IMG/VR virus record: IMGVR_UViG_3300025070_000171
Location: 1 to 27,952 of that record
DNA from: a virus
Length of the DNA stretch: 27,952 nt
Direction: 5' to 3' (one strand)
The translations under genes were made by a program, and so were the position numbers. The notes under the pieces were generated by a model, which searched no databases, was not told where the DNA came from, and saw only the letters and a list, made by a program, of their open reading frames with translations. Position 1 is the stretch's first letter. Every line of letters begins with the position of its first letter. This document shows positions 6,122 to 23,898 of the stretch, one piece after another.

Positions 6122-9100
6122 ATGGGATACGGCAGTCAAGACGGTTATGACTGGATGATGGATACTTATTCACCGAGTAACACTTGGTGGATGCCAGAAG
6201 GATTAAATTTTGACGGAAGTTTATCTGGGGGAGGTTTCGATTTTCAAGAATTTGAAACAGACTTAGGTAACATGGGTATCACCGAAACCGAAAACTTAGG
6301 TTATGGTGGATTTTCTTTAGGCTTTGATGAAGTTAATGCTGTTTTCAATGTATTAGATAAAGATATATTTACTGACGCTTTTACTATTGAAGATAAGTCT
6401 TATTTAAATTCTATAGGAATTGATGCAGACAAACTTGTTAGTGATGCTTTTGGTGAAGATGGTTTATTAGATTTAAGTCAAAATGGAGAAGTTACTCCAG
6501 ATGCAAACCCATCTGTTACAAGGCAAAAAATATTAGACATTTATTCCGACCCTAAAAACTTAGGAGAAGCAGAAGTTTATTTAAGAACTTTTGTAAAAGA
6601 ATTAGACTACTTGCAACACAAGAGAGCTTCTGATAATATACAAAATACTGTTTCAAAAGCTTACGGATTTAGTAATGCAGAAATAAGAGAAATAAATCAA
6701 TTAGCTGATTTAGAAGATTTTAGAAATAGGTTTAATGTAGCTTTACAAGATTTCGTTGATAGTGACTATTATGATGGAAGATTTAATAACCCAGATATAA
6801 TAGATGAAAGAGAAACTATTACATTAGATGAATCTATGGGTTATACTCCAGAATCTGTGGGATACGGAGATGTAGTGTCAAATCCAGATTTTGGTAAATA
6901 TATAGTAGACCAAGATTTAATAAATGACTTTGCTTATGGAGTAGATAAAATAACAGAAGATGATGTAAACGATTCTATTAATAAAATAGATTTATCATTT
7001 GGTCAAAACACAGGAGAAACTATAAGTTCATCTGGTTATTTTATAGCTGTTGCTTTAGATTTGCTAGGTATGTCTGGCGTAGGAACATCTTTATATGTTA
7101 CTCAAGCGGGTTACAATTATGTAGTAAATGGTGTAGAGAGAATAGCTAATAAGTTAACTGGATTAGGATTTGATTTTCCTAATTTAAATATTCACGAAAT
7201 GGCGGCTGAGATACTTAATCAAAAATTTGTTGATAAAGATGGAGAACCAATTCTAGAAGGAATAGCAGATAAAACTAAATACTTAATGCCTTTTCACAAC
7301 CCAGAAGCAACATTATCATTAGCGGGAATGGGTGGTACACAGTTAGGAAAATTTGACCCAACTGGTGAAAATATATTTGAAAACATTGCTGATGCTTTAT
7401 TGGAAGGTAATATTTTAGATGCAGTACAAGAGCAATCAGAAGAAGGTAAATTTGAAGGAGTAGAATCAAACAGAAGAACTGGTGCAATAGGGATGCTTGA
7501 TAGTATAAGCTCATATGTTCAAGGACTTGGAGTAGCGGGTCAAAAGATATTCGGTCCTGGTTTAACTCAAATGATTATAGATAATGCTATTTTTAAAGGT
7601 TATCCAGTATCGGGTTTAGCTAATGGCATTTCAGCAGCAATGGGTCCGCAAAGTGCAAAGGATTGGGTAAGGTATTTAGAAAATAAAGGTATAGACCCTA
7701 ATAATGTACAAGAAGCAGATATATCTTATTGGAGAAGTACATTAGATAATTACTTTGAAGACGATTCAGTATCCGAGCCTAGTAAGACTGGTTTTGATGT
7801 CTTACTAGATAGCGCTAATAAAGGTGGCTTGTCTGCTAAATATTTATCTTCTTTAAGTTCTTATCTAGAAGAAATTACCAACAAGCCTATGGATAGAATG
7901 CAACCTGCGGAAATCATAGCTGTACTAAATGACCAAGTACAAAGTTCAATAGATAGAGGAGAAAAATATGACCCAGAAAACGGACTTGATGTTTTGTACA
8001 AACAACTAGGGGGAACATTTGAAGTAAATGACAAAGTGGGATTTGGAGAAAACAATGAATTTTATTTTGATTTAGAAACAATAAATAGATTAAAAGAAAC
8101 ATTTCCAGACATTACGGATTCAGAATACGAAGCAGGTTTTGATTACTTAATAAGTGAAGGTGCGGAAGGTACGCAATTTACAGAGGGTGTAGACTTTGAG
8201 ATTACATCGGATGCAAGTTTTTTTGCAACCAATTATGTAGAAGAGGAAGATTATATTGTTATGAGAGACGTACCTGCAGTAGCCAGTTATTTTGATTACA
8301 GAACAAACGAGCAAGGTGATGAATTTGTTTATGACCCTATGTCGGGTGTAACATATGAATTTGAACAAGCTAGATTGTTTGATGAGCCTGGCACTAGAGA
8401 TGACCTATATACGTTTCCAAGTTTATCAGCAGAAGATTTAAGGAACTCTGATAGAACACTAAATAAAGAAATATTAAAGGAATTAGCTCTTACTGGTAAA
8501 TTAGAATACAAAGAGTTAAGAGACTTAGTAACTAGTGATTCTTCACTTTTTGGAGGAGGCAACAATAGGAATGTTTTGCACTCGATTGATTTAGAACTAG
8601 GGGATTTTTACTTAAAAAAATACGCAGGTCTAACAGATGAAGAATTAAAAGATTTTAATCAAAGCGATTATCTTTTACCTGGAACGGATTCGCCTATAAC
8701 TAGGTATGGTTCAAGAACAGACCAAATAGCAATAGCGCATTCTTGGAATACACCAGGAGGTAGCTTTGGTCAAGGTGGTTGGAAAACTCCTACTCTTGAG
8801 TATATGTTAATGCTCAATGGTTATACCGATGAAAACTTCGATGTATTACAAACAAACGAAGCATACGATGAAAATTATACAGAAGAAAGTATATTTGAGC
8901 TAAGACCATTTGAAGTCATAGAAGAAGAAAATGGAGTACCTCTTGTTGTTGCAGATACTTTTTATGGTTTTACGGAGTATTATGACCCTAATAGACTTAA
9001 TCCGAATACAGGAGAATATTTATTTAGAGAATATTCTTACGATGAACTAAAATATAAACCATGGACAACTGGTGGATATTCAGATGGTTCGTATAATATT

Positions 9101-12100
9101 ACTCCTGGTCAAAGCTATAGTCCTCTTTACACAAATTCTGACGACAGAGCTAAAGTTTTAAAAAGCTTACTTGAACAAGGTAAAATTACAAAGCAAGAAG
9201 CGGAAGATTTAGATTGGTCATATTACTTAGCGACAAATCCACCTACACCACCTACGGGCTATGACCCTCTTACAGGTCAACCTTTTGGAGACTACACTAC
9301 AGAGGATGATGTATTAGCTCAATGGCAAAGAGACTCAATATTTTACAATTCTAATAATGAACCAAATTGGATAGAGTCTGAAGAATATGCAGCCATTGAA
9401 GAAATTGATTTAAGTACACCAATAGACTATGAAGCTCCTGTAACATCTTTTTATGATTTGCCAGACTTTGTGGTAACAGGTTTTGATGACATTGATACAC
9501 TAGGTGAAGCTTACCAAGATAGGCTAGATTTTATTGATAATACTAATTTTGATTTCAGTACTAAAGAATTTTTAAAAGATAGTGCATTTGATTTATTTAA
9601 GTCAAGAAAAGCTTTTATTGAATTAGATGAGACATCGCAGCAATTAATACTTGATGCACAAGCAGAAGCCACAAGCGACTTTGTAAATTTAGGTGTATTT
9701 ACAGTAACTGCTAATAACATAACTGATTTAGATACTGAATTGCAGACTAGGTTAAATCAAATTACTGCATCCGAATTATCTGAAGGACAAGAGCAATACG
9801 AGATTAATTTAGCAAATGCTATATACAATTCAAAGCTATCGGAAATAAATACTTTAACTTCTAAAAATTTAGCAATTACTACAGCAGAAAATGCTAGAGA
9901 TATTGCAATACAAAATGAAGGTGCATCATCACAGAATGCTGCTAATTTACAAGCTAGAATAAATAAGATAGAATCTTACGAAATACCAGAGTTTAATGTA
10001 ACTGCATATATAGATGCAGAAGACCAAAGTGCGTATATGCAAAACTTTGTTGATGAAGTTATGAAAGGCACTACGGAAGAGTTTGGAAACTTTTTATCTG
10101 CATCAAATGCAGACCAAATATTAGCTAATGTAGCTGCTTTAGCACAATCAGAAACAGATTTAGGCATTGCAGAAACTGCGCAAAAAGAAAATTACGATAA
10201 CTATCAAAAATACTTAGGTTTATATAATACAGCTAATACGCAATTAACTACTGCTAGAGAAACACTAGAAGCAAATGAGCTAACAATAGCAGACCTTGAA
10301 GCGGATTTATACGTAGAGCTAGAGAACTTTGAGGTTACTGCTTCTGATATAGAGGGCGGACAAAGTCAGTTAGATTCCTTTAATGAAGAGATAGACAGAA
10401 TGGTTAGTGACGGAGAGATTACGTCAGAGCAAGGAGAACTAGAAAAGTCATTAGCTACTAATACATTTAATGTATACAAGGCTACTCAAGACATTGCTTC
10501 ACTACAAACAACTTCTGATGCAGAAATAACAAGGTTAAATGATTTGGTAGTTAGTGCTAATAACGAAGCAGATAGAATACAAGGTTTATTAGACAATGCT
10601 GAGACACGAGTATCAGATTTAGAAGCAGAAGAAATAAGATTAGGTAATGATATAGCTGAATTAGATGCACAAGCTTTGACTGATAGTGAAAACTATACAG
10701 CACTACAAACTGAAAAAAATAGAATCAAAGGTTTGTTAGATACTGCTAGAGCCGACAGAGATGCTCAAAAGGCTGCTAAAGAATCAGCTAGAGAAGATGT
10801 ATCTATCTTACAATTACAGTTAGAAACAGCACAAGGGGCAACAGAAGCACTACAAGCATTTTCATTACCAGAGTTTAATGTAACTGCCACTAATCAAGTT
10901 GAACTAGATGCTTATTTAGACAGTTATCAAAGTTATGTAGACGAAGCAGAAGCTAATAAAGACATTAGCGCAGAACAAGCTATTAATTTTGATACTATTA
11001 TTGCTAGTATTAGAAATAACGGTAGTCAGATTTTTACTTTAGAGGCGGCAAACAAAGATAAGCAAGATGAAATAGATGAACTTAAAGGAGTAAATACAGG
11101 ACTAAGTACAACTATAGGTGAGAAAGAAGAACAAATACTAGATTTAACAGGAACTATATCTGTAATCGGTAGTGGATTTGATGTTACTTTGTATGATGAT
11201 ATTGGTGACTTAGAGACAGGTCTTGCATCTTATATACAGGGTATCAATGATTCCGACCTAGATGAAGAGATGAAAGAATCCCAAATAGCATTTGCCGAAA
11301 GTATGGCAGATATGCGTAGAGAGAATCTATTTGTTCCTACATATGAAGCACCAGACTTTAATGTAATAGCCGAAGGAGACCTTACTGGATTGAATCAATC
11401 CTACTCTCAAGCTATGTTTACATTAGATAGTTTCTTAGGTAACGAATATATTACTCAAGAAGAATACGATGCAAATGTATCAGCCTTAAACGAATCGTAC
11501 AATACAAGGAAAGAAACACTCGTACCTGCGTATACATTGCCAGAGTTTACCGTATCTGATTTAGATGCTGAAGGTGGGTTTACAAACCTTGATGCAGAGA
11601 AAGAAGAATTTTTAAATGAGTTACAAAGTTTCTTAGATAATGATTACATTACTAGAGAAGAACATGATGCCCTTGAGGCTCAGATAGAATCTGCTTACGA
11701 TACTAAAAAACGAGATATTACCCCTGTATATGAAGCACCAGACTTTACAGTATATGGGCAGTTAGAGCCTGGAGGAACTTTCGAGGATATAGATGCAGAA
11801 TACAATACTGCTTTTGATGAATTAACATTAAATGCTCGACTAGGATATATTAGTACATCAGATTATATTACTCAATTAAATGACCTACAAACATCTTATG
11901 AAGATGCTAGAAAAGGTATAGCTCCTGCGTATGAGTTGCCAGACTTTAGTGTATATGGACAGATTGCAGAGGGCGATGATACTACAGAGATAGATACTGC
12001 GTACCAAAACGAGCTAACAAGGTTAGAGGAATACAAAGATAGTGGTTACATTAGCCTAAGTGAGTATTATGGTTTCTTAGGAGAGTTAGAAACTGAGTAC

Positions 12101-13678
12101 ACTACAAGAAGAGAAGGTGTACTACCTACTTATACAATGCCAGACTTTAGTGTTACACCTGCTTCATCACTAGCAGAGTTAGCAGAAATGGAGCAAGCGG
12201 CACGAGATAGATTTGGAATGTTTAGCGACCAAGAATATTTCCCAGAGGACTTTGATATTCTTACTGAACAAGGAAACCTAGAGAGTTTATTTGATGCCGA
12301 AAGAGCTAGATTGCAAGGTACATATACACTCCCAGAATTTGCAGTTGAAGATACTAAAGGTTTATTAAAGCAGGAAGATATATCTAACTTATTCTCGGAA
12401 TACGAAGAAGGGCTACAAGAAGATGTAGTATCTGGAATGCTTGGAATAACTGATTTCTTTAGTGCAATGGAAGGTGCAGAAACTATATTTGATGTAGAGT
12501 ACGGGAAGCGCAAACCAATACAACCTAGAGAAGGTGGGTATCAGATTATCCCAGATGCAAATAATGAAGGAGATGGTCCTTCGGACTCAGACTTTTTTGA
12601 TTACGTAGATGATGGAAATTACGCAGACCAATACGGAACTATAGGAGGTATTGATACAAGTGGTATACTAACAGGAAACTATATGGCAAAACTAGACCCA
12701 GCTTATCAATTAGCGGAAATGTTATTAGGCGAAGCGGGAGCAAGAGACTTGTTCCCTACAGGCAAAAGCCGCGGATTAGCCGATGAACAATTCCAAGACG
12801 TAGTCAATCAATTCATGCTTGGACAAGCAGACGATGCTTTCGATATGCAAGCGGGTCTAGCAGGTAAGCAACAGGATTTAACTGACCAACTTACTAGACT
12901 TAAAAGACAATCAGACTTAGACCTTATGGCTGAGTTTGGAGACCCTTATAGGAAACAAATAGAAGACTTATATCCAGGGGCTACTGAAGCACTACAAGCA
13001 CAGCAAGAGATAGCTAGACGTTCTGCTGACAGAGCTAGAGGAGATTTAAGTCCATCTGAGCAATCTGCCTTAGAGCAAAGTTCTTATTTATTTGGAGCAG
13101 GTCGTGGTAGAGAATATGACCCATTTACTTTAGCTAACCAAATTGGTGAAGAATCACAAGTTAGACAGCAACGTGATACTCAAGCATCTAATCAGCAAAT
13201 AGCTGCTATGAATGCAGAGAGAGGTTTATATGGCGACTTGATGAGTATTATAGGTACAGATAGCCCATATGCGCAAGGAGTAGGAGATGTTACTACACCG
13301 TTTAATATTGGAGGTATTATGGATTTAGGTACTGTAGACTACGCAAATCAACAAAGACTACAAGAAGCTCAAATGGCTGTTAGTTCATTACAAAGAGACT
13401 ATGATACAGCTGTAGCATTGAGAGAACCAAGTAGAGCGCAAAGCATACTGAATGACCTTAACCAAGCTAAACAAACAGTAGACACGATTAGCATGGGATT
13501 GAGTACAGCACAGCAAGCTTTCGGTACTGTTAAAGATATATTTGGTGGTATAACTAATATATTTGGTGGAGGACGTTCTGGTATAAATACAAATTCTTTT
13601 AATATAAATGCTCCTACCTCAGTAGATTATGGAGATAAGGATTCGTTTTCAAGATATTTATTCGGAATGGGATTATGA
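6122..13678 (+). CDS. Giant virion protein (2518 aa) with Y-x-x-P-[DE]-F-x-V repeats; probable internal/ejection protein
   Basis: The gene covers over a quarter of the window. Residues 1 to about 1100 are acidic and globular-looking, with a Gly/Ala/hydrophobic patch near 300-345. From residue 1111 to about 2120 there are roughly twelve copies of a strand motif such as YDLPDFVV, YEIPEFNV, YEAPDFNV, YELPDFSV, YTMPDFSV and YTLPEFAV, at residues near 1111, 1191, 1286, 1397, 1580, 1684, 1741, 1804, 1870, 1937, 2004 and 2068. Long charged helices, probably coiled coil, separate them. The C-terminal 300 residues are Gln/Ala/Arg-rich and end in a Gly/Phe-rich segment. It has SD AGGAGA and a 4-base overlap with the next gene. 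Position suggests an internal core protein. No enzyme motif was recognised. Confidence 0.7.
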   Translation: MGYGSQDGYDWMMDTYSPSNTWWMPEGLNFDGSLSGGGFDFQEFETDLGNMGITETENLGYGGFSLGFDEVNAVFNVLDKDIFTDAFTIEDKSYLNSIGIDADKLVSDAFGEDGLLDLSQNGEVTPDANPSVTRQKILDIYSDPKNLGEAEVYLRTFVKELDYLQHKRASDNIQNTVSKAYGFSNAEIREINQLADLEDFRNRFNVALQDFVDSDYYDGRFNNPDIIDERETITLDESMGYTPESVGYGDVVSNPDFGKYIVDQDLINDFAYGVDKITEDDVNDSINKIDLSFGQNTGETISSSGYFIAVALDLLGMSGVGTSLYVTQAGYNYVVNGVERIANKLTGLGFDFPNLNIHEMAAEILNQKFVDKDGEPILEGIADKTKYLMPFHNPEATLSLAGMGGTQLGKFDPTGENIFENIADALLEGNILDAVQEQSEEGKFEGVESNRRTGAIGMLDSISSYVQGLGVAGQKIFGPGLTQMIIDNAIFKGYPVSGLANGISAAMGPQSAKDWVRYLENKGIDPNNVQEADISYWRSTLDNYFEDDSVSEPSKTGFDVLLDSANKGGLSAKYLSSLSSYLEEITNKPMDRMQPAEIIAVLNDQVQSSIDRGEKYDPENGLDVLYKQLGGTFEVNDKVGFGENNEFYFDLETINRLKETFPDITDSEYEAGFDYLISEGAEGTQFTEGVDFEITSDASFFATNYVEEEDYIVMRDVPAVASYFDYRTNEQGDEFVYDPMSGVTYEFEQARLFDEPGTRDDLYTFPSLSAEDLRNSDRTLNKEILKELALTGKLEYKELRDLVTSDSSLFGGGNNRNVLHSIDLELGDFYLKKYAGLTDEELKDFNQSDYLLPGTDSPITRYGSRTDQIAIAHSWNTPGGSFGQGGWKTPTLEYMLMLNGYTDENFDVLQTNEAYDENYTEESIFELRPFEVIEEENGVPLVVADTFYGFTEYYDPNRLNPNTGEYLFREYSYDELKYKPWTTGGYSDGSYNITPGQSYSPLYTNSDDRAKVLKSLLEQGKITKQEAEDLDWSYYLATNPPTPPTGYDPLTGQPFGDYTTEDDVLAQWQRDSIFYNSNNEPNWIESEEYAAIEEIDLSTPIDYEAPVTSFYDLPDFVVTGFDDIDTLGEAYQDRLDFIDNTNFDFSTKEFLKDSAFDLFKSRKAFIELDETSQQLILDAQAEATSDFVNLGVFTVTANNITDLDTELQTRLNQITASELSEGQEQYEINLANAIYNSKLSEINTLTSKNLAITTAENARDIAIQNEGASSQNAANLQARINKIESYEIPEFNVTAYIDAEDQSAYMQNFVDEVMKGTTEEFGNFLSASNADQILANVAALAQSETDLGIAETAQKENYDNYQKYLGLYNTANTQLTTARETLEANELTIADLEADLYVELENFEVTASDIEGGQSQLDSFNEEIDRMVSDGEITSEQGELEKSLATNTFNVYKATQDIASLQTTSDAEITRLNDLVVSANNEADRIQGLLDNAETRVSDLEAEEIRLGNDIAELDAQALTDSENYTALQTEKNRIKGLLDTARADRDAQKAAKESAREDVSILQLQLETAQGATEALQAFSLPEFNVTATNQVELDAYLDSYQSYVDEAEANKDISAEQAINFDTIIASIRNNGSQIFTLEAANKDKQDEIDELKGVNTGLSTTIGEKEEQILDLTGTISVIGSGFDVTLYDDIGDLETGLASYIQGINDSDLDEEMKESQIAFAESMADMRRENLFVPTYEAPDFNVIAEGDLTGLNQSYSQAMFTLDSFLGNEYITQEEYDANVSALNESYNTRKETLVPAYTLPEFTVSDLDAEGGFTNLDAEKEEFLNELQSFLDNDYITREEHDALEAQIESAYDTKKRDITPVYEAPDFTVYGQLEPGGTFEDIDAEYNTAFDELTLNARLGYISTSDYITQLNDLQTSYEDARKGIAPAYELPDFSVYGQIAEGDDTTEIDTAYQNELTRLEEYKDSGYISLSEYYGFLGELETEYTTRREGVLPTYTMPDFSVTPASSLAELAEMEQAARDRFGMFSDQEYFPEDFDILTEQGNLESLFDAERARLQGTYTLPEFAVEDTKGLLKQEDISNLFSEYEEGLQEDVVSGMLGITDFFSAMEGAETIFDVEYGKRKPIQPREGGYQIIPDANNEGDGPSDSDFFDYVDDGNYADQYGTIGGIDTSGILTGNYMAKLDPAYQLAEMLLGEAGARDLFPTGKSRGLADEQFQDVVNQFMLGQADDAFDMQAGLAGKQQDLTDQLTRLKRQSDLDLMAEFGDPYRKQIEDLYPGATEALQAQQEIARRSADRARGDLSPSEQSALEQSSYLFGAGRGREYDPFTLANQIGEESQVRQQRDTQASNQQIAAMNAERGLYGDLMSIIGTDSPYAQGVGDVTTPFNIGGIMDLGTVDYANQQRLQEAQMAVSSLQRDYDTAVALREPSRAQSILNDLNQAKQTVDTISMGLSTAQQAFGTVKDIFGGITNIFGGGRSGINTNSFNINAPTSVDYGDKDSFSRYLFGMGL
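9452..12515 (+). repeat. Protein-level repeat array (about 12 units) inside the giant virion gene
   Basis: Each unit opens with a strand like Y-x-[LAM]-P-[DE]-F-x-V, followed by an Asp/Glu-rich helical hairpin often containing [YE]-I-[ST]-x-x-[ED]. The last six starts (residues 1741, 1804, 1870, 1937, 2004, 2068) are 63-67 residues apart, while earlier ones are 57-183 apart. DNA between units is diverged, so the duplication is old, except that the YEAPDF and Y-[TE]-LP-[DE]-F words recur almost unchanged. Confidence 0.75.
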
Positions 13679-22123: not shown

Positions 22124-22265
22124 TGACGACTTGTATGTTTATGTAGGCTTTATTTTTCTTAACGAGCTTTGCCGCGGCTTTAGCATCATTAGCATATCTA
22201 ATGGTATACCCCCTGTAATCTGGGGGCATATCATTATGCGAGTAGATAATTTCAAATTTATTCAT
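22101..22265 (-). CDS. Small hypothetical protein (54 aa)
   Basis: The ORF encodes MNKFEIIYSHNDMPPDYRGY, then TIRYANDAKAAAKLVKK and a short strand ending HSE. It overlaps the methyltransferase stop by four bases (ATGA) and the endonuclease VII start by 23 bases, so it fills the gap and is probably translated. The fold guess is a small alpha/beta protein (strand, Ala-rich helix, strand). No family or function is recognised. Confidence 0.65.
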   Translation of the reverse strand: MNKFEIIYSHNDMPPDYRGYTIRYANDAKAAAKLVKKNKAYINIQVVNELPHSE

Positions 22266-23530
22266 AAAATTCTATTTATTAATGTTAGAAATGCTTTTGC
22301 TGCAGTAGCAGGAACAACGCCATTCCCTAAAGCTCTAAGTCTGTCCACCCTTGTGGAATACCCATTAGATTTTCCACCCAATCTGGATTTAACTTTAATG
22401 ACTCGTTGGGCTTCCCATCCGTATTGTTCTTCGTTGGGTCTAGACGGCCAGTTATTGCTAGAGCTTCTAAGCATTTGCTCGCTTGCGTGTTCCCCTGCAG
22501 TCTGTACTGTTGTTCGTTGGCACTCGGTGTAGGAAAGTCCTTCACTTCTTGACATAGTGGTGGTTTCTGACCTCCGCCTGGATGGTTCTTTCTCTTGGCT
22601 TGTATATTGGCTAAGTCCATCACAGTCGGTGTTGACCAATTCTTCACTTGTTCCGTTAGGCAACCCTCTACATATTTTCTCCCGATGCTCTCTCTGTACT
22701 TCTTGCGTTTCTCCATTCCTTCTGGCGTTCTTTCTATGTCTATCCCCGTTGGTGTTAGCCAATTCCGTTTCACTTGGTCGCCCAAGGGTATTCCCCCCTT
22801 GTTGTTCGGACGACTGTTGTCTATTGCACCTGCCCTCGGTGTAGCCCAGTTCTCCTCGTGAGTCTCTACTGCATCTCTCAGTTTCGCCCCAAAAGTTTGA
22901 TTGCTCTTGTGCCTCTTGCTCTTGAAGCCCACTTCCGTCATCTCCGTCTCGATGCGTCCTCCCTCTGCATCCGATGTTCTCGCTGTGGGCCAACCCAAGG
23001 ATGTAAACTCGCTTTCTCTGGTGTGGCGCTCCGACTTCACTCGCTGAGAATATTCCGACCTCTGTTCTGTAACCCATTTTTTCCAATGTTCTTCCGACAT
23101 ATTTGACCACAGGTTCTCCTTCTCCTGTTTTGCAACTGAGTATCCCTTCGACATTTTCGAGGAAAACAATTCGAGGTTGGCACTCTTCGATTCCTTTTGC
23201 GATGTAGGGGAAAAGGTGTCTTGGGTCTTCGGTAGCTTTTTTAAGGCCTGCTTGAGAGAATGGTTGGCACGGGAATCCTCCAGATAAGATATCCACGAGT
23301 CCTCGAAACTTTCTGTAAGGGAAGGTTTTAAGGTCTGTGTAAATAGGTGCTTCATCCAAAAGACCCTTTTCAATCTTGCTTTCCAAGTTCGCGCAGCAGA
23401 ATCCTTCCCTCTCCACGAAAGCGACTTCTCGCAGGTTTGGTAGAATTGTTCTAAGTCCCATTCCGATTCCTTCGTATCCTGTGCAGAGACTAAGGTGGTT
23501 AATTTTTTCGGTAGTATTATCATAGTTCAT
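22262..23530 (-). CDS. C5 cytosine-specific DNA methyltransferase (Dcm-like)
   Basis: This is a 422-aa protein. Motif I is HLSLCTGYEGIGMGL (12-26), the catalytic Cys motif IV is GGFPCQPFSQAG (84-95, C88), motif VI is FLENVEG (123-129), and motif VIII is QRKRVYILG (171-179). Motif X is RLRALGNGVVP (397-407). Residues 180-380, where the target-recognition domain lies, are unusual: hydrophilic, Arg/Glu/Gln/Asn-rich, with five L-x-[NYH]-[TS] repeats, and without a clear motif IX. The segment looks higher in G+C than neighbouring genes. Modification of phage DNA against host restriction is the likely role. An overlapping +1 ORF covers most of the gene. Confidence 0.9.
   Translation of the reverse strand: MNYDNTTEKINHLSLCTGYEGIGMGLRTILPNLREVAFVEREGFCCANLESKIEKGLLDEAPIYTDLKTFPYRKFRGLVDILSGGFPCQPFSQAGLKKATEDPRHLFPYIAKGIEECQPRIVFLENVEGILSCKTGEGEPVVKYVGRTLEKMGYRTEVGIFSASEVGAPHQRKRVYILGLAHSENIGCRGRTHRDGDDGSGLQEQEAQEQSNFWGETERCSRDSRGELGYTEGRCNRQQSSEQQGGNTLGRPSETELANTNGDRHRKNARRNGETQEVQREHREKICRGLPNGTSEELVNTDCDGLSQYTSQEKEPSRRRSETTTMSRSEGLSYTECQRTTVQTAGEHASEQMLRSSSNNWPSRPNEEQYGWEAQRVIKVKSRLGGKSNGYSTRVDRLRALGNGVVPATAAKAFLTLINRIL
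22327..23523 (-). CDS. Overlapping +1-frame ORF with W-x-TP repeats (candidate dual-coded protein)
   Basis: This 398-codon ORF lies inside the methyltransferase gene, starting from an ATG seven bases after the methyltransferase ATG. The N-terminal 170 residues look like a mixed charged sequence. From residue 177 it contains GWPTARTSD, NWATPRAGAID, NWLTPTGIDIE, NWSTPTVMDLA and DFPTPSANE (W178, W226, W255, W296, F330). Units end in LRDAVE, LGDQVK, LTEQVK and LCQEVK. The C terminus is LNPDWVENLMGIPQGWTD. I recall separate phage proteins with W-[PA]-TP-x-x-x-D repeats and a similar L-N-P-x-W-x-E-x-L-M-G-x-P-x-G-W-T end, often near cytosine methyltransferases, but cannot verify this. Function is unknown, and it could still be a frame shadow. 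Confidence 0.45.
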   Translation of the reverse strand: MIILPKKLTTLVSAQDTKESEWDLEQFYQTCEKSLSWRGKDSAARTWKARLKRVFWMKHLFTQTLKPSLTESFEDSWISYLEDSRANHSLKQALKKLPKTQDTFSPTSQKESKSANLELFSSKMSKGYSVAKQEKENLWSNMSEEHWKKWVTEQRSEYSQRVKSERHTRESEFTSLGWPTARTSDAEGGRIETEMTEVGFKSKRHKSNQTFGAKLRDAVETHEENWATPRAGAIDNSRPNNKGGIPLGDQVKRNWLTPTGIDIERTPEGMEKRKKYRESIGRKYVEGCLTEQVKNWSTPTVMDLANIQAKRKNHPGGGQKPPLCQEVKDFPTPSANEQQYRLQGNTQASKCLEALAITGRLDPTKNNTDGKPNESLKLNPDWVENLMGIPQGWTDLEL

Positions 23531-23898
23531 TTTAATTTTATTAATATTTTTATTGGTAGTAAAATTCCTTTGCTAAGATTATTGTCACCACCTAATCGGT
23601 CTTTATCTGTTCCTAAAAAAGGTCTAACAATATCTTTTAATTTATCTGTAGGTAAAATGATTAGTAGATGTTCAACTGCAATGCAATAAAAATCTGCATT
23701 TGTTTTTGCGATGCCACTAGGCTTGCCCCTGCATTCGTATTCAATAAATACATTGCCAGTATCTTTAGCAATGAAATCTGTCTTAACTTCAATGAGTTTA
23801 TTTCTTAGGATGTCATCAAGTTCTTTTTCTTTAACTTGCCCCACCTCTAAGTCGTGACTGAAATTACTACAGAAATCCATTACTTTGCTCTCATCCAA
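23527..23898 (-). CDS. PD-(D/E)XK-like small phage protein (123 aa)
   Basis: The protein contains LIEVKTDFIAKDTGN then VFIEYECRGKPSGI and KTNADFYCI. The IEVK element (E37, K39) after a helical N terminus, followed by a beta strand and the EYE-RGKPSGI segment, resembles the catalytic core of restriction-endonuclease-fold (PD-(D/E)XK) proteins of marine phages. A DNA-cleaving or end-processing role is inferred. Family members of this kind are usually unannotated. It overlaps the methyltransferase start by four bases (ATGA) and the next upstream nuclease gene by 19 bases. Confidence 0.65.
   Translation of the reverse strand: MDESKVMDFCSNFSHDLEVGQVKEKELDDILRNKLIEVKTDFIAKDTGNVFIEYECRGKPSGIAKTNADFYCIAVEHLLIILPTDKLKDIVRPFLGTDKDRLGGDNNLSKGILLPIKILIKLK

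Follow-up and report, generated by a model that had tools for sequence, protein, structure and literature searches.

Two open reading frames at one locus

The window, by which we mean the whole stretch of DNA that was analysed, is a virus record of 27,952 bases. Its minus strand carries two open reading frames, denoted α (422 aa) and β (398 aa), which lie exactly where an earlier reading, made from the sequence alone, had placed them. β is read in the +1 frame of α and falls entirely within the α coordinates, covering 94% of the α length with approximately 1.2 kb common to both. The features of the locus are:

23527..23898, minus strand: upstream gene, 123 aa (phrog_13596, unknown); its TGA stop shares ATGA with the α start
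23521..23530, minus strand: paired starts ATGAACTATG, with the α ATG at 23528-23530 and the β ATG at 23521-23523
22262..23530, minus strand: α, 422 aa, C5 cytosine methyltransferase (PF00145, E 8e-36; phrog_363, E 7e-50)
23462..23494, minus strand: α motif I, SAM-binding, LSLCTGYEGIG
23246..23278, minus strand: α motif IV, GFPCQPFSQAG, with the catalytic cysteine of PCQ
22313..22351, minus strand: motif X in the α frame, RVDRLRALGNGVV (from sequence; phrog_1008 positions 286-319)
22327..23523, minus strand: β, 398 aa, +1 frame of α (phrog_1008, E 1.4e-17; stop avoidance and conservation)
22993..23523, minus strand: β residues 1-177, N-terminal part, over α motifs I-VIII (alignments and stop counts)
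22849..22992, minus strand: β unit 1, WPTA ... LRDAVETHEEN (from sequence; cassette M0)
22762..22848, minus strand: β unit 2, WATP ... LGDQVKRN (from sequence)
22639..22761, minus strand: β unit 3, WLTP ... LTEQVKN (from sequence; cassette M13)
22537..22638, minus strand: β unit 4, WSTP ... LCQEVKD (from sequence; cassette M3)
22393..22536, minus strand: β unit 5, FPTP ..., reaching to motif IX (from sequence)
22345..22392, minus strand: motif IX in the β frame, LNPDWVENLMGIPQGW (from sequence; profile alignment, E 0.058)

Direct reading of the α chain gives motifs I, IV, VI (ENVEG), VIII (QRKRV) and X, the five that the sequence-only reading had named, and motif IX is absent. With I, IV (PC), VI (ENV) and VIII in one chain α meets that criterion for a C5 methyltransferase (PF00145); the further criterion, that motif IX and a variable region between VIII and X be present in the same chain, is not met. 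In the window motifs IX and X share 7 nt, which end the former and, read in the other frame, begin the latter. Genes near the pair are those of phage replication and recombination (a DnaB-like helicase, an Erf-like annealing protein, endonuclease VII, an exonuclease and a replication initiation protein), and the neighbour genes scanned in the window gave no recognisable restriction endonuclease. The longest ORF of the window by far is one of 2518 codons on the plus strand (6122-13678).

Alignments of β with its relatives give an N-terminal consensus SLxWRSKPS..RTW..RWKR..W..HL.GR.L.PS and a conserved C-terminus LNPxWVExLMGLPxGWT. Between the N-terminal part and motif IX there are 0-8 W-x-TP units per locus, with a median length of about 36 aa. 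In the window five units begin at W178, W226, W255, W296 and F330, as had been described before, the first of them being WPTA and not W-x-TP; the proposed closing pattern L-x-x-[AQE]-V-[EK] is present in four units (LRDAVE, LGDQVK, LTEQVK and LCQEVK) and does not extend to all five. Several unit types reappear at differing positions in different phages, and cassette M0, the type of unit 1, occupies unit positions 0-3 elsewhere among the loci. Two near-identical β frames (L006 967-2199 and L007 776-2059) differ in that one W-x-TP block has been replaced by another, an apparent cassette exchange; the swapped block occurs in L005 and L012 too.

A profile of the β C-terminus, compared with single-chain C5 methyltransferases, aligns at the place of motif IX (RrlTpREaarlqGFPdd). 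The match is weak (E 0.058) because it is short, and it falls at the correct place among 419 columns. β matches phrog_1008, annotated 'DNA methyltransferase', over residues 213-396 (E 1.4e-17), and the match runs on into the motif X region of α (α 383-419), so that a known family holds in one chain what the window divides between two frames. All of the 98 β proteins scanned match this family. No Pfam or NCBIfam family was matched by β, and a PDB sequence search gave nothing above chance. AlphaFold models of β alone, calculated for β with 92 sequences and for a compact β with 70, are of low confidence (pLDDT 59 and 57, pTM 0.27 and 0.23, respectively), which would fit a subunit that acquires its fold on the partner and proves nothing.

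Selection on the second frame

In the window there are no stops in the β frame and 32 in the third frame, and 5000 synonymous-codon shuffles of α gave a mean of 8.5 β-frame stops without once reaching zero, bearing out the impression of the sequence-only reading that the +1 frame is not random-looking. A frame could nevertheless remain open merely through the codon usage of α and repeats that make stops rare; the α variable region is repetitive and has few stops, the expectation for it being only about 1-2.5 per single gene, and in one genome this could suffice. Relatives were assembled in overlapping sets, consisting of 26 viral loci found with the window β, 80 viral and 80 genome loci found by β alignment and 80 viral loci found by α alignment. 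In 186 of the 275 loci with an α match the α frame has motifs IV and X and the +1 frame has motif IX; the others are partial, outside the search patterns or have a truncated α, and motif IX was found in α's own frame in none of the 275. Among 68 complete genes from loci fetched by α only, 66 have no +1 stop from approximately motif I to near the end, and the third frame has a mean of 15 stops and is never without one.

A pair test was carried out with 65 locus-disjoint pairs drawn from 161 distinct loci, with α identities of 51-94%. Codon pairs were shuffled between columns that had the same amino-acid pair, preserving both α proteins and all codon changes and breaking the link to β. The half containing motifs I-VIII has 12 β-frame stops, compared with 300±14 expected, and between VIII and IX there is 1 where 47 are expected. 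Third-frame stops are near expectation in both parts (918 vs 956 and 532 vs 535, respectively), as are +1-frame stops past the end of β (78 vs 79), and related β proteins are more identical than in the permutations (z of 15 over I-VIII and 11.5 between VIII and IX). As a control, single-chain C5 methyltransferases encoded in the same genomes show no avoidance, with 46 stops vs 47.7 expected. Near-copy loci, which could have simulated an open frame, are excluded by the independence and the divergence of the pairs. The stop counts refute an accidentally open frame, and the conservation of β above expectation, the absence of stop avoidance in the single-chain enzymes, the conserved pairing of starts and the continuation of β beyond the end of α (both below) speak against it as well; we give it practically no chance.

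A rate model yields ω values for α of 0.31 in the catalytic half and 0.91 between VIII and IX, where, to judge from these rates, the α amino acids would be hardly constrained. For β the values are 0.70-0.71, with 0.36 around motif IX. The multiplicative model is biased by position, however, giving 0.76 for the +1 frame even in the tail and more than 1 for the +2 frame; the permutation tests were for this reason used in its place and the β values are not relied on. Lying as near as they do to the biased tail baseline, ω values of 0.70-0.71 would not by themselves decide the matter. The criterion for an overprinted pair, protein-level selection in both frames, is met, and we consider dual coding almost certain, being supported as firmly as sequence comparison allows. 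The proposal of the sequence-only reading that one stretch encodes an overprinted pair, which frequent +1 stops among homologues would have undone, has thus come through.

The two frames also begin together. In the window the α ATG overlaps the TGA of the upstream gene (23527-23529, in the frame of β), and the β ATG follows three bases later, 7 nt downstream of the α start. The α and β starts are at most 13 nt apart in 128 of 139 loci with a full-length β. Most often, in 88 loci, the starts form ATGTG or GTGTG, comprising the first codon of β and, two bases on, an α GTG; in most of the GTG loci the α start is a prediction. β starts at +4 in 20 loci (ATGnATG or GTGnATG), at +7 in 7 loci, like the window, and at -5 in 7 loci. 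In 66 of these loci the starts are preceded by a Shine-Dalgarno-like stretch, and none is clear before the start pair of the window. Given its absence there, the position of the α ATG on the upstream TGA and the proximity of the β ATG, reinitiation is the likely route to both window products, although this is an inference.

Loci with a truncated α frame

In 13 loci α ends soon after motif VIII, or before X, and β remains open for a further 124-339 codons. Beyond its end the α frame of these loci has 165 stops, compared with 180 expected from the β codons, which is the neutral level. The absence of stops in the variable region in this comparison, and in the N-terminal region of full-length loci, depends in part on the way in which loci were selected; the +1-frame results from the N-terminal half of the pair test and from the loci fetched by α alone do not. 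A tree built from the catalytic part of α shows, by well supported branches, no fewer than 8 changes between the truncated and the fully overlapping state. Since β stays open past the end of α it appears to be a protein in its own right, with the VIII-X stretch of α a labile linker. Homologues of the +1 product without a full methyltransferase overlap, whose lack would have told against the overprinted pair of the sequence-only reading, are thus available in these 13 loci as well as in the phrog_1008 family.

Six of the truncated loci (L063, L072, L171, L178, L215 and L235) have IX and X both in β, in canonical order. They speak for a programmed ribosomal frameshift, by which the N-terminal half of α would continue in the +1 frame after motif VIII as a single long chain, since α with motifs I-VIII followed by the later part of β (variable region, IX and X) amounts to a canonical enzyme, and in several loci α indeed stops just past motif VIII. 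Such a mechanism requires neither a +1 frame that is open over the first 170 codons nor paired starts, however, and both are conserved. Moreover, the common class has motif X in the α frame, hence two shifts would be required, and we regard a frameshift as improbable.

Reassignment of stop codons as the origin of truncated α frames was rejected, the α-frame stops being many and of all three kinds. In one locus (L098 2461-3675) a single TAA splits α, with the frame beyond it open and motif X still there, so that α looks to be in two pieces or recently broken. In another (L195 226-1936) α, with motifs IV and VI, overlaps the ORF containing motif IX by only ∼166 nt and in another register, a layout nearer to an M.AquI-like arrangement.

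A putative two-polypeptide enzyme and its relatives

We propose that α and β are the subunits of a single two-polypeptide C5 cytosine methyltransferase, to which we assign a probability of approximately 0.88, both translation and activity being inferred. α would contribute motif X and the core for SAM binding and catalysis (motifs I-VIII), and β an N-terminal domain together with motif IX and, between them, the variable W-x-TP region. The pair would assemble, by inference again, to methylate cytosine, the DNA target being picked mainly by β; a role in protection from host restriction is likewise inferred. Both chains would come from one place on the mRNA, where in the window terminating ribosomes could restart in either frame, and where in other loci a Shine-Dalgarno-like stretch is followed by an interlocked pair such as ATGTG.

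The sequence-only reading had taken the +1 product for a distinct repeat protein and had put the recognition region in the methyltransferase frame, and here we differ. The +1 product is very probably the other subunit, with motif IX and the variable region, and the recognition region is most likely in β because the variable region of α is nearly unconstrained (ω 0.91) and repeatedly absent. It might still be argued that β has a function apart from methylation, as a DNA-binding or anti-restriction protein for example, and merely overlaps a methyltransferase. It has no Pfam match, its N-terminal part is without a known counterpart, and we have not found W-x-TP repeats described as recognition modules in the literature consulted. 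Yet β ends in the very motif that α is missing and accompanies α in practically all loci; where α loses motif X it is β that carries X, in six loci; and PHROG and several annotators label β a methyltransferase. A separate function is, in our estimation, very unlikely. In known C5 enzymes the region between VIII and IX holds the target recognition domain (PMC3404938). By analogy, exchange of W-x-TP units in β may change the specificity of methylation.

M.EcoHK31I, with target YGGCCR, and M.EaeI are natural two-polypeptide C5 methyltransferases. The small subunit of the former, about 176 aa, is encoded inside the α gene in another frame and starts within it, and the window β is similarly encoded within α. 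In M.EcoHK31I motifs I-VIII and X are in the large polypeptide, which also has the predicted recognition domain, and IX is in the small one (PMC3404938). The division of motifs in the window is the same, so that the criterion for likeness is met, and by analogy the window system would work like M.EcoHK31I, a need of both chains for methylation being inferred. It differs in that β has 398 aa, spans 94% of α, starts at +7 nt and contains W-x-TP units, with a large N-terminal part over the catalytic core, and in that the type is widely spread. In M.AquI the chains part at a point after motif VIII and before the variable region ends (PMC3404938), an arrangement that resembles the truncated-α loci; its small subunit contains IX and X, a criterion met in the six loci listed above and not in the window, where X is in α and the genes overlap almost completely.

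PHROG 1008, with its match to all 98 β proteins and to the motif X region of α, is a sequence cluster whose record is silent on an overlap or a partner subunit. Two overlapping 'DNA cytosine methyltransferase' genes, with motif IX in β, are annotated in Paenibacillus phage Bloom and its relatives, but this β, of 234 aa, begins inside α, and over motif I its N-terminal half is not open. Four loci, including Bloom, have such a short β, starting about 140-170 nt past motif I, and cluster on the α tree with long branches. Full-text literature searches returned no account of the α/β family beyond M.EcoHK31I and M.AquI. What is new relative to known systems is the near-complete overlap, the interlocked starts, the cassette-like W-x-TP units and the wide spread.

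Hundreds of phages and prophages have kept the double reading. Phage hosts include Acinetobacter, Synechococcus and Paenibacillus, plus a Klebsiella-phage group, and genome contigs with the pair are from Pseudomonadota, Bacteroidota, Verrucomicrobiota and others. Independent isolate genomes with the pair include C75C1, ABMM1 (an Acinetobacter phage), Bloom and K1ind2; these and hundreds of contigs rule out an assembly error. To our knowledge, few long same-strand overlaps with conservation of both frames are known except in small viruses. It is possible, though we hold this only tentatively, that the loci represent a large and mostly unrecognised phage and prophage class in which two full subunits share one stretch with interlocked starts, the N-terminal half of β being a new domain born by overprinting of the catalytic core and the W-x-TP units exchangeable specificity cassettes by which a phage could switch the target it methylates, dragging the α frame along. 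The natural variants (full β, short β and truncated α) allow direct tests of why such an overlap persists and of translation in two frames from one site.

If the proposed enzyme is correct many annotated phage 'DNA methyltransferases' would be half an enzyme and many public genome records would show one half only; one would expect clones of α alone to be inactive, and the target specificity of enzymes annotated from α would have to be sought in the unannotated frame. Public annotation is uneven, with α only in C75C1 and ABMM1, β only in VB_PaD_phPA-G, and both frames in Bloom, K1ind2 and ArV1. In Pseudomonas phage VB_PaD_phPA-G (L308 1488-2229) the β frame is deposited as 'hypothetical protein' and the α frame, with motifs I, IV, VI and VIII, is unannotated in the record. 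Arthrobacter phage ArV1 (L306 954-2424) has two 'DNA methyltransferase' entries, one per frame, and Escherichia phage K1ind2 (L307 1002-1931) a 'C-specific methylase' and an 'Mte8-like protein'.
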